Part shown: one piece after another, positions 3,141 through 37,500 of the stretch
How positions within the stretch are numbered: position 1 is the first letter of the stretch
How the letters are laid out: each line of letters opens with the position of its first letter
NCBI GenBank assembly: GCA_020723465.1
Contig: DYIW01000014.1
Location: 1-37,500 of the forward strand
Length of the DNA stretch: 37,500 nt
Direction: 5' to 3'
DNA from: Phycisphaera mikurensis
GTDB lineage: Bacteria; Planctomycetota; B15-G4; JADJEK01
The notes under the pieces: model-generated
What the model was told of the DNA's origin: nothing
Databases searched by the model: none
Seen by the model: the letters and a program-made list of their open reading frames with translations, nothing else
Translations under genes and position numbers: made by a program

Positions 3141-4488
3141 TCAGCAGAACCACCGCTCCTCGATCAAACGACTGGTCCGGCCGGCCGCTCCGCGCGCCCG
3201 CTCCAGCGCGCGCTTTCCGGCCGCGGCCATGGCCGCGCCGGCGCCGCCGAAGAGGTCACGGGCCGCCGCGAGCAGCTCCGCCGGATCGTTCAAGACCCTG
3301 ATCGCTCCGGCTTCCTCGAGGAAGAGGACGTCGGAGCGCACGTTTCTATGGTGTCCGCCGACCAGGACCGGGACCCCGGCGAGGACCGGCTCGAACACGT
3401 TGTGGCCCCCGACGCCGGGGACGAGCGAGCCGCCCACGATGGCCAGGTCGGCCGCCGCATAGAGTGCGGCCAGTTCGCCCATCGTGTCCACCACGACCAC
3501 GGTCGCGGCCGCGCGGCCGCCTGCCTGGCGTGCCGGGCCCGCCGCGCGCAGGCGCGTGAGCCGGAGCGACGCCAGACCAGCATTCTGGAGATCCCTCTCG
3601 GCCTGCGCAAGCCGCTCGGCGTGGCGCGGCGCGACGAGCAGCCAGAAGGGAACCGGCGCCTCGCCGGCCAGAGCGAGCGCCGCCCGACCCACGAGCGCCT
3701 CCTCGCCGGCGTGCGTGGAGCCGGCCACGAGCACGCGCGCCGCCGGCTCGATGCCAAGCGCCTGGCGCGCCGCCGCCCGGTCCGGCGCCGCGCCGCGCGG
3801 CGCGTCCACCTTGAGGTTGCCGGTGACCGCGACGCGCTCCGCGGGCACCCCCAGCGCAGAGAGGCGCTCCTGGCACTCGTCGTTCTGCACGGCGAACAGG
3901 CCGACGCGGTCGAGGCCGACGAAGCGGCGCGCCCCGGGAAAGCGCAGGCGGCGGCTGGTGGTCGCGCCGATGCGGCCGTTGGCCACGGCCACGCCCGCGC
4001 CGCGCCGCCAGGCGGCATGCACCAGGTTCGGCCAGAGCTCCAGCTCCACCAGGACCAGCACGGTGGGATCGACACGCGCCATCACGCGCCGCGCCAGGGG
4101 GCCGAGGTCGAGGGGCAGCACGAAGGCCGTGCTCCTCGGCAGAAGGCGGCGCGCGACCTCCACCCCGGCCGCGGTCACGCTGGACAGCACCACCTCCAGG
4201 TCCGGACGGCGCTCCCCGAGGAAACGCGCCAGCGCCGCCGCCGCGGCCATCTCGCCGGCCGAGCCGGCGTGGATCCAGACGCGCGGTCGCGACCCGCGAG
4301 GCGGCGGCAGGAGAAGCGCCAGGCGCTCGGCCAGGCCAGAGCGGTAGCGCGGCCGCGTGGCCACGCGCAGGAGCAGCCAGGGCGAGGCGAGCAGCAACCC
4401 GCCGGCGAGCAGCAGGTCGTAGGCGAGCAGGCGCAGGCGCGGCGCCGCGCGCGCGGCCCCGGGACTCGTTCCAGCGGGCGCCGTGCGA

Positions 4489-9666: not shown

Positions 9667-10110
9667 TCACTTCCTGGGATGCTCCGTCTGCGCGGCCGCC
9701 GCGGGCTTCACCGCCCCCACCACCCTGGTCACCTCGAGCACACGCTCTTCCGTGTAGACCTTTCCCTTCAGTGTCACCGTTTCGCCGTGGTGCTCCTTGA
9801 CGACGGACTGCGCGTTGTCGACGTCCAGGTAGTGCAGGACCCATCCCTCCAAGTCCGGACGCGCCTCTCCGTACGCGGAGGCGCTGGTCACCTTCAAGGC
9901 GTGCCGGTGTCCGTACTTGCCGCATTGCGCGGCGGCGCCTTCCTGGTGCTGCAGGGTGCAGCCCAGGCAGACGTTCTCTCCCGCGACAGTCGCTTCCACC
10001 ACCTTCGCGTTCGCCGGCCTCTTCTTCGCGCACGCCGGATGGTCCTGCGCGAAGGCGTATCCTGCGATCGCCAGTCCAAACATGCTCGCCAGCAGCATTC
10101 CTCTGTTCAT
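9667..10110 (-). CDS. small secreted CxxC/His-rich protein, paralog 1
   Basis: MNRGMLLASMFGLAIAGYAFAQ signal peptide; GENVCLGCTLQHQEGAAAQCGKYGHRHALKV; SD aaggaagg; adjacent homologous ORF. Confidence 0.8.
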   Translation of the reverse strand: MNRGMLLASMFGLAIAGYAFAQDHPACAKKRPANAKVVEATVAGENVCLGCTLQHQEGAAAQCGKYGHRHALKVTSASAYGEARPDLEGWVLHYLDVDNAQSVVKEHHGETVTLKGKVYTEERVLEVTRVVGAVKPAAAAQTEHPRK

Positions 10111-10179
10111 CGTTCGCCTTCCTTCGCTCTCATGCTTCGCCTGCACTCCACGATCCGAACCACCGCCAGCCCGTCCCGA

Positions 10180-10644
10180 TCACTTCTTGGGATGCTCCGT
10201 CTTGGGATGCTCCGTCTTGGGATGCTCCGGCTGCGCGGGCGTCGCCGACGCCTCCACCTCGGCGACCTCGAGCACGCGTTCCTCGGCGTAGACCTTTCCC
10301 TTCACGGTCAGCGTCTCGCCGTGGTGCTCTTTGATGACGGACTGCGCGTCGTCGGTGTCCAGGTAGTGCAGAACCCACCCCTCCATCTCCGGATGCTCCT
10401 CACCTGCCGTGGACGCGCTGGTCACCTTCAGCGCGTGCCGGTGTCCGTACTTGGCGCACTGTGCGGCGGCGCCTTTCTGGTGCTGCAGGGTGCAGCCCAG
10501 GCAGATGTTCTCCCCCATGACGGTCGATTCCGCCACATTGGCGCTCGCAGGCTGCTTCTTCGCGGTTGCGGGGTGTTCTTGCGCGAGGGCGTATCCGGCG
10601 ATCGCCAATGCCACCAGACTCGCCGTCAAAGTTCCTCTCTTCAT
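10180..10644 (-). CDS. small secreted CxxC/His-rich protein, paralog 2
   Basis: MKRGTLTASLVALAIAGYALAQ; GENICLGCTLQHQKGAAAQCAKYGHRHALKV; VKEHHGE.. replaced by IKEHHGETLTVKGKVYAEERVLEV; SD aagaggaaag. Confidence 0.82.
   Translation of the reverse strand: MKRGTLTASLVALAIAGYALAQEHPATAKKQPASANVAESTVMGENICLGCTLQHQKGAAAQCAKYGHRHALKVTSASTAGEEHPEMEGWVLHYLDTDDAQSVIKEHHGETLTVKGKVYAEERVLEVAEVEASATPAQPEHPKTEHPKTEHPKK
10186..10230. repeat. 15-bp tandem repeat x3 (cttgggatgctccgt) coding C-terminal TEHPK repeats
   Basis: Three consecutive 15-bp units 10186-10200, 10201-10215, 10216-10230 giving ...EHPKTEHPKTEHPKK. Confidence 0.9.
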
Positions 10645-10729
10645 CGGTCGCTTTCCTCTTGTACTCGGAGCCGTGGTGGCCCGGTCCGAATCATGGGTGA
10701 GTCACCGCCGCCCACCGGCGCCTCGAGCC

Positions 10730-10757
10730 CCTCCTTGCCCGCATGGGCAAGAAGGGA
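10730..10757. other. stem-loop CTTGCCC-GCAT-GGGCAAG with extended outer pairing
   Basis: cctccttgcccgcatgggcaagaagggagccc: perfect 7-bp inner stem, 4-nt loop, between the paralog pair and the repeat array. Confidence 0.5.
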
Positions 10758-10820
10758 GCCCGTGTCGCTGACAGGCCGGGCCTACTAGCACCTCGACGAT
10801 TGCTGTCAAGGACCGGCCTG

Positions 10821-11447
10821 GCACCGGGCGTCTCCGGTGCATGCCTTCCGGGGCGGGAGCGGGCCCTTCTCCCGCCCGCGAACGCCTACCTTGACTACGT
10901 GGTACCGAAGCGGCCCGCCTTGACCCGGACCATCGAGACGGCGCGATGGCGCAGCGGAGCGGCGTTTCCCTGGTGGAGGGGACGGCCGCGATCGCTCGGC
11001 ACACATCCCCTCCCCTCCGGTTCCGTGTAACCGGCTGCGACGCCTGTCTCACCGCGCGTCCCCGCGCGGTGCACCATTCCGGGGCGGGAGCGGGCTCCTC
11101 TCCCGCCCGCGAACGCCGACCTTGAGTACGTGGAACCGAAGCGGCCCGCCTTGACCCGGGCCATCGAGACGGCGCGATGGCGCAGCGAAGCGGCGTTTCC
11201 CTGGTGGAGGGGACGGACCCGATCGCTCCGCTCACATCCCCTCCCCTCCGGTTCCGTGTAACCGGCTGCGACGCCTGTCTCACCGCGCGTCCCCGCGCGG
11301 TGCACCATTCCGGGGCGGGAGCGGGCTCCTCTCCCGCCCGCGAACGCCGACCTTGAGTACGTGGAACCGAAGCGGCCCGCCTTGACCCGGGCCACCGAGA
11401 CGGCGCGATGCAGGAGCGGAGCGGCCTTTCCCCGGTTGAGTGGCCGC
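10821..11447. repeat. tandem array of 231-bp units, about 2.6 copies, each with multiple hairpins
   Basis: The string ccggggcgggagcggg starts at 10848, 11079 and 11310 (period 231). Units share ...gtggaaccgaagcggcccgccttgacccgggccatcgagacggcgcgatgg....; third copy decays after about 11409-11447. Confidence 0.92.
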
Positions 11448-11548
11448 CAGCGCCGACGTACCAACCGGCACCCGGCGATCCTTCACGACTCTGGACCGCC
11501 AGCATCGCCTTCACCTCGAAGAGGCTCCTTCCGATCATCGCGCGCTCG

Positions 11549-11660
11549 ATGCACCGGGAGGCGCGATGCGGCCACGGACCCCGGGGAAACGGCCGCGATC
11601 GCTCGGCACACATCCCCTCCCCTCCCCCTCCCCTCCCCTCCGGTTCCCAACCAAACAGCC
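11549..11660. repeat. diverged partial copy of the 231-bp unit
   Basis: acggccgcgatcgctcggcacacatcccctcccctcc is identical to copy 1 (around 10981-11018), flanked by weaker similarity (ctcgatgcaccgggaggcgcgatg...). Confidence 0.7.
11614..11641 (-). other. G-quadruplex-type G-tract run on minus strand
   Basis: Plus strand cccctcccctccccctcccctcccctcc = minus ggaggggaggggagggggaggggagggg. Confidence 0.7.
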
Positions 11661-11674
11661 GCGAAGCCCTAGCC

Positions 11675-12541
11675 CTAGGCTGAGGCGCCGGTGCGCTGGC
11701 CGCGCGAGGCGCCCTGCAGCATGGCCTCGAGGAAGCGCAGCAGCACGTCGGCCTGGAACGGCTTGACCAGGAAGCCGTCCCCGGGCGGGCGCGCCAGGTC
11801 GAAGGCACGCGCCGACGCGAGCAGCACCGGCAGGCCGCGGCGGCGCTCATCGGCCTTGAGGCGCGCGCACGCCTCGATGCCGTCCATGCGCGGCATCTCG
11901 ACGTCCATGAGGATGAGATCGTGGCGCTCCGGATGCGCCATGCTCACCGCCTCCTCGCCGTCGCGCGCCAAGTCGACCTCGTACCCCTTCAGCTCCAGGA
12001 GGTGCGCGACCGTGTCCAGGATGGCGGCGTCATCATCGACCAGCAGGAGGCGCGCGCCCTTGGGCGGCTCGCGCTCCTGCGGGCGGCACTCGAGCACGCC
12101 CTTGAGGTTTACGGTCGTGGGCAGGCCGGCGCCCTCCCAGGCGGCCTCGATCGACGCCTTCAGCTCGCGGTTGAACTCCATGAGTCGCGCCAGCTCGAAG
12201 TCCCGTTCCGCCTCGAACATCTGGTCGTGCGTGTCCACGGTGAAGAAGAACTCCCCGCGGAAGAGGTGCTCCAGCAGACGCATCTTCATGAAGGCGTAGC
12301 GCCGGTTGCCGAGCCGCAGGGCAAAGACGCGGGCGCCGCGGCCAACGCGCGCGGTCTCGTCCAGGAAGTCCTCGCGCAGGCGCTGGCTGACGGGCGTGTC
12401 GCCGCTGCCGGCGGGACGGCGCAGCGAAGGCGGGATGGGCGCGTCGCGGTAGGCATGCTCGAGGTAGAGGTCGATCGCGCGATTGACGTGGTCGAGCGTG
12501 ATCTCTTCCAGTCGCATCTCGCTGGGACCTCGGAGCGCCAC
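11675..12541 (-). CDS. response regulator receiver protein with N-terminal non-REC domain
   Basis: C-terminal REC: ARLLLVDDDAAILDTVAHLLELKGYEVDLARDGEEAVSMAHPERHDLILMDVEMPRMDGIEA...GFLVKPF; N-terminal ~160 aa of unrecognised family. Start may be MRLEEI at 12517. Confidence 0.85.
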   Translation of the reverse strand: MALRGPSEMRLEEITLDHVNRAIDLYLEHAYRDAPIPPSLRRPAGSGDTPVSQRLREDFLDETARVGRGARVFALRLGNRRYAFMKMRLLEHLFRGEFFFTVDTHDQMFEAERDFELARLMEFNRELKASIEAAWEGAGLPTTVNLKGVLECRPQEREPPKGARLLLVDDDAAILDTVAHLLELKGYEVDLARDGEEAVSMAHPERHDLILMDVEMPRMDGIEACARLKADERRRGLPVLLASARAFDLARPPGDGFLVKPFQADVLLRFLEAMLQGASRGQRTGASA

Positions 12542-37390: not shown

Positions 37391-37500
37391 TGGTGGAGAC
37401 GGGCTGACGGGACACGGCCGCGACCGCTCCTCGCCGCGCGTCCCCGCGCGGAGCACCCTTCTGGGGCGGGAGCGGGCTCCCCTCCCGCCCGCGACCGGTC
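37391..37500. repeat. dispersed copy of the 231-bp-array element (truncated by window end)
   Basis: ctggtggaga...cacggccgcgaccgctcc...gccgcgcgtccccgcgcggagcaccc ttctggggcgggagcgggctcccctcccgcccgcga matches the array's double-hairpin section. Confidence 0.85.

Follow-up and report, generated by a model that had tools for sequence, protein, structure and literature searches.

Intergenic folded repeats of the ERIC/IRU, RUP and NEMIS types are elements on the 100-bp scale found in other phyla, and large structured RNA candidates are sequences of several hundred nucleotides whose secondary structure is supported by covariation. REP elements and BIMEs are repetitive extragenic palindromes and include the GTAG and CGTC families (PMC3733652, PMC2817692); REP elements lie mostly in the gaps of unidirectional and convergent gene pairs, past the coding sequences, and often touch or supply stop codons (PMC3733652). 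The array described here was found in a window of 37,500 nucleotides (the whole stretch of DNA analysed) from a groundwater planctomycete genome, G000, and is one shortened local copy within a dispersed, genus-specific repeat family. That this family is real, restricted to one genus, structured and located close to stop codons is secure.

A preliminary description of the locus had reported a tandem array with a period of 231 bp at 10821-11447. Tandem Repeats Finder bore out the period (10846-11440, 2.6 copies, 94% matches, score 1064). The array is real but larger than first delimited: the repeat feature covers 10819-11670 and its third unit is full-length (Table 1). The hairpins listed earlier, GGGCGGGAG-N9-CTCCCGCCC at 10851-10877, 11082-11108 and 11313-11339, ACCGCGCG-TCCC-CGCGCGGT and the smaller stem CCGGTT-N6-AACCGG, are all in the sequence, and so is CCATCG-N8-CGATGG, although this last stem is local and not conserved across the family.

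Table 1. Features of the window array, its flanking genes and a second family copy in the window
Feature	Position	Strand	Basis and remarks
Gene on the other side of the array	10180..10644	-	Encodes 154 aa without a Pfam match; its start is ~175-205 bp away from the array
Unit 1, short form	10819..11018	+	Profile columns ~36-207 joined to 344-390; nhmmer family profile: 10819-10991 = hmm 36-207, 10982-11029 = hmm 344-390
ACGGCCGCG, 9-bp direct repeat	10982..10990	+	Point at which the apex of the long hairpin is missing from unit 1; motif positions and consensus
Unit 2, short form	11016..11246	+	Profile columns 5-201 joined to 3' block; Tandem Repeats Finder and nhmmer
Hairpin H1 of unit 2	11050..11071	+	CACCGCGCG-TCCC-CGCGCGGTG; unit 3 has an identical copy (11281-11302), unit 1 an incomplete one
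Hairpin H2 core of unit 2	11081..11117	+	GGGGCGGGAGCGGGCTCC...GCCCGCGA.CGCC; also 10850-10886 and 11312-11348
Unit 3, full-length family unit	11247..11670	+	Profile columns 5-408; nhmmer 1.9e-99; 3' end beside stop codon of response-regulator gene
Long covarying stem of unit 3, 5' arm	11421..11457	+	A2 columns 11-50
Long covarying stem of unit 3, 3' arm	11557..11596	+	A2 columns 166-208
Flanking gene, response-regulator receiver domain	11675..12541	-	Pfam PF00072, 4.7e-21; stop codon 5 bp from array 3' end
Further family copy, start only	37411..37497	+	Profile columns 17-100, nhmmer 4.8e-12; cut by contig end; 31 bp past gene stop

The 231-bp unit is true of the window but is a derived local form of a family unit of ~370 bp. 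Over 231 bp, unit 1 has 95% identity to unit 2; between units 2 and 3 there are zero mismatches across 162 bp at offset 231 (11002-11163 vs 11233-11394). The first two units lack the apex of a long stem-loop (profile columns ~208-343), and the junction in unit 1 falls exactly at ACGGCCGCG, which full units carry on both sides (consensus copies near columns 197 and 342, the intact 3' copy being at 11589). Four further short forms of the same kind occur at other loci, and such forms would have arisen by deletion between the 9-bp repeats within the long stem. The period is thus read as a tandem duplication of the shortened unit, which would have been a later step; the sister locus (L059) is without this 231-bp duplication. 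Nothing more than such a local duplication was the alternative against which the preliminary description had set its own readings. The near identity of units 2 and 3 and the missing duplication at the sister locus speak for it, and it holds for the 231-bp period; as a full explanation it is refuted and retains only the faintest probability, since the unit belongs to a covarying family that is spread over the genomes of two species.

Family units measure ~365-375 bp, with ~365 columns obtained by iterative nhmmer over fetched loci, and 44 near-full copies average 70% identity. Further copies in the genome, whose absence had been proposed as the sign of a simple duplication, number in the dozens: blastn of G000 with the array gave 66 matches in ~40 contigs, many of them at contig ends, and a sister species represented by a Planctomycetota groundwater MAG (G001) gave many more. 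A covariance model of a 127-nt core had 67 hits in G000 and 81 in G001. The repeat is thus at ~60 or more places in each of two related groundwater Planctomycetota species, over which we read 123 array loci, most of them between genes, with 232 segments. A query from the 3' end of the unit found additional contigs missed with the core, so the counts given for the family are minimum values. In both MAGs, many contigs terminate inside the repeat, which helps to explain their frequent contig-end breaks; the copy at the end of our window follows a Kdo/WaaP kinase-like gene.

Outside the two species, the core covariance model had no hit in the 12 remaining genomes of the order, and under stricter filters only G000 and G001 were positive among 392 Planctomycetota genomes, with none in the other 390. 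Distant blastn found no match in phage or plasmid collections; an 18-bp core pattern had matches in 6 viral contigs. No similar family was seen in a sample from one relative (G002). Another sample (G004) contained an unrelated element of ~165 bp that is bounded by terminal inverted repeats like CAGCCTGTTGAAGAACT (L259:16355-16515, L249:9872-10054, L243 and L247), and similar ends are present in G000 (L207, near 1560-1720); this element looks like a MITE that at least two genera of the order carry.

Read 5' to 3' on the plus strand, the unit consists of a linker, hairpin H1, a nearly invariant hairpin H2, a weaker H3, a long stem-loop of ~190 nt (at least 25 pairs, loop roughly 110 nt) and a C-rich 3' end. 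Among 53 copies of the 127-nt core, 18 columns are invariant and about 50 nearly invariant, H2 being nearly invariant family-wide. H2 shows no two-sided changes, and because its sequence hardly varies, covariation neither backs nor opposes its fold. The long stem behaves differently. Over 25 pairs and 70 copies, standard pairs occupy 97.9% of cells vs 89.4% in shuffles, two-sided changes affect 15 of the 25 pairs vs 6.3, and the covariation score is 0.253 vs 0.092; none of 500 shuffles reached the real stem on any of five measures. With a tree built from unpaired columns, we counted 53 compensatory double changes in the long stem vs 3.5 with random partners. One could see in this pattern an artefact of templated correction from arm to arm (quasi-palindrome repair), or of recombination among copies, instead of selection on the fold: transversion swaps account for many of the double changes, wobble intermediates are few, and the copies are mosaic. 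We consider this quite unlikely, given that the same stem is kept at its high level of pairing over all 70 copies with a loop that is more divergent, and that shifting the partners by a single column makes the signal disappear.

The strand on which the fold might act was addressed with wobble pairs. In the long stem, 23 G–U and 24 A–C events favour neither strand, whereas the 23 vs 8 events in H1 favour the plus strand, which is antisense to most flanking genes. Such a pattern would suit DNA hairpins, and equally RNA made from both strands, which is to be expected where genes converge; the symmetry of the long stem together with the antisense bias of H1 counts against inferring RNA action in the gene-sense direction. 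The predicted fold is stable on both strands (z -2.5 and -2.4), with energies only modestly better than those of shuffles. Of the earlier suggestion of a structured RNA, one part stands: the strong long-stem covariation backs selection on the fold or its templated maintenance; the strand test gives no RNA preference. A stand-alone class of structured noncoding RNA, transcribed from its own promoter on the plus strand, could draw on this covariation, on the G–U excess in H1 and on the stable fold. It is made very improbable by the strand-neutral long stem and the modest energies, by the lack of any sigma-70-like promoter or intrinsic terminator (hairpin plus T-run) in 10600-11800, and by Rfam, where no family came near its gathering score (best match 22.3 bits vs 52 needed). 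Intrinsic terminators were also rare in the 150 nt after stop codons at arrays (0/29 and 1/28). An open frame on the minus strand spans the window array, although the array is noncoding by its indels: a protein-coding repeat was rejected, as indel lengths modulo 3 (5692, 1791 and 808 for 1, 2 and 0) showed no frame preservation.

For the placement of the arrays, we used a gene caller trained on recognisable genes of the window, such as SecA and UvrC, and checked several calls with Pfam. At 65 of 91 readable loci, the adjacent gene on the 3' side is turned with its stop codon towards the array, and stop-facing genes lie within 15 bp of the array more often on the 3' side (38/65) than on the 5' side (12/45; p=0.0017). 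Among fully flanked arrays, 48 of 62 have a stop-facing gene on one side or both. Element orientation in tandem gene pairs is 22:8 (p=0.016), and convergent pairs are enriched at arrays over array-free spacers (p=9e-5). Where the frame of a gene runs on, a stop codon inside the element is used. Units are single or in short same-direction tandem arrays, predominantly directly past stop codons of tandem and convergent gene pairs, and the flanking genes are diverse, including response regulators, an Mfd-like transcription-repair coupling factor, an aldehyde dehydrogenase, a glycosyltransferase and a HEAT-repeat protein. Closeness to stop codons is partly expected, as convergent spacers that have no array are very short, in most cases less than 50 bp. 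Two observations count against a role at 3' ends of protein genes: 14 fully flanked arrays lie in divergent spacers, and one array (L032:5098-5803), read by eye, starts just past an apparent tRNA gene end and a terminator-like hairpin. Upstream of the window array, 9667-10146 and 10180-10644 on the minus strand are tandem paralogous genes of ~155 aa with CLGCTLQ motifs and no Pfam match, the second ending in a 15-bp tandem repeat (10185-10229) that encodes EHPKT repeats.

Enrichment between convergent genes, strand symmetry and an H2 conserved in sequence and not merely in pairing, with no two-sided changes, would also suit a protein-binding or topological array acting on the DNA between transcription units. 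By analogy with BIME-2, the site might be one for a nucleoid protein or gyrase, formed by H2 or by repeated GGCCGCGAtCGC-like motifs. Such an array is improbable, for a simple DNA-binding site would have no need of a covarying stem of 25 pairs, and the binding protein is only putative.

Comparison of the two species shows both shared and variably occupied sites. Arrays are at matching positions in about 20 loci. Flank searches, which covered the first 4058 of the 4480 bases of concatenated flanks, gave two sites (L152/L205 and L173/L206) that are cleanly empty in G000 and hold a single unit in G001, and at neither was a target-site duplication seen between empty and filled site. In L205, a short hairpin spacer is at the position of the L152 element; three other flank-searched sites had remnants or no element. 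In another case, G000 has a gene for a 738-aa protein of repeated VSLSGDTALVGA units (L208:1625-3841, minus strand) where G001 has an array (L061), and a remnant of the family repeat lies beside that gene at 4037-4117. Between the window and its sister locus, the unit pieces are 94-95% identical vs 81% at fourfold sites of neighbouring genes, an excess that suggests constraint in situ. Selection at this locus is likely, as judged from sequence; in the general case conservation is not above the fourfold level, all orthologous arrays having 77% identity vs 79% at fourfold sites, with uncertain unit orthology.

The dispersal in many copies and the empty orthologous sites support the earlier suggestion of a non-autonomous element, so that the three-way reading of the preliminary description (structured RNA, replicating non-autonomous element or protein-binding array) is partly supported. 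A purely selfish element would depend on an enzyme from another locus that recognises the hairpins as single-stranded or cruciform DNA, and its core and stem would be conserved for mobility only, with no benefit to the host. The gain or loss of single units without target-site duplication agrees with this, as do the wobble symmetry of the long stem, the drift of many copies at about the synonymous rate, and the fact that stop-proximal placement can result from short spacers. The genome also contains IS200-like Y1 transposase genes (7 Y1_Tnp matches), seven of them, in L098-L104, being related (DNA 80-90% identical) and several lying at contig ends. None of the 7 is flanked by a family repeat, so mobilisation by RAYT/Y1, if any, would be in trans, and no autonomous partner was seen. 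With the conservation of the window and sister units above fourfold sites and the many sites common to both species also opposed to it, a purely selfish origin appears possible but on the whole unlikely.

Our preferred explanation, tentative and given nearly an even chance, is that the family spreads as a non-autonomous repeat and that its fold is kept for a role at the 3' boundaries of the neighbouring transcription units. The spread would proceed much as that of REP/BIME, and the fold would be kept because it is active at such boundaries in either orientation, where it might block 3' exonucleases or read-through, or provide a supercoiling or protein site between genes. As a folded boundary, the family would probably affect the two flanking transcripts or else the local DNA; the mechanism itself, whether a folded two-way 3' boundary or a topological or protein site, we infer with similar reserve, at roughly the same slightly-less-than-even confidence. 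A bolder and rather unlikely proposal is that the unit represents a large folded 3'-end module with several domains, new as a class and common to several dozen unrelated genes in one genus, which would serve as a standard two-way transcript boundary instead of short intrinsic terminators and spread from gene end to gene end. As the family can be followed in two species, at sites that are shared or empty and in naturally shortened units, its spread and function are testable.

Among the known systems, large structured RNA candidates are alike in covarying structure, but the family differs in having dozens of copies per genome, no strand signal in the long stem and no Rfam match. ERIC/IRU, RUP and NEMIS-type repeats are likewise folded and intergenic, and are set apart, by description and not by sequence, as smaller and from other phyla. 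With MITEs and REPINs, the family shares being short, noncoding, dispersed and variably present at orthologous sites; its ends, however, are not inverted repeats, and it has no observed target-site duplication and no known partner transposase. The likeness to REP/BIME is in high copy number, in intergenic palindromes that are single or clustered, and in location downstream of genes in tandem and convergent pairs. A REP, however, is a single palindrome of 20-40 bp, whereas the family unit of ~370 bp has several hairpins and a long covarying stem; BIME alternate in direction, whereas the family arrays run in the same direction; neither GTAG nor CGTC is at the foot of H1 or H2 (consensus read by eye); and no Y1/RAYT gene was found beside family copies. 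The family thus resembles REP/BIME in placement and is not classed with them on account of size, the single palindrome and the tag. It is best read as a mobile 3'-end repeat that is REP/BIME-like but has a new size and architecture. If true, a covarying multi-hairpin element of ~370 bp at the 3' ends of dozens of unrelated genes would be unusually large for REP/BIME-like behaviour: the well-studied bacterial 3'-end repeats are short, and this family is ten times larger and more elaborate.
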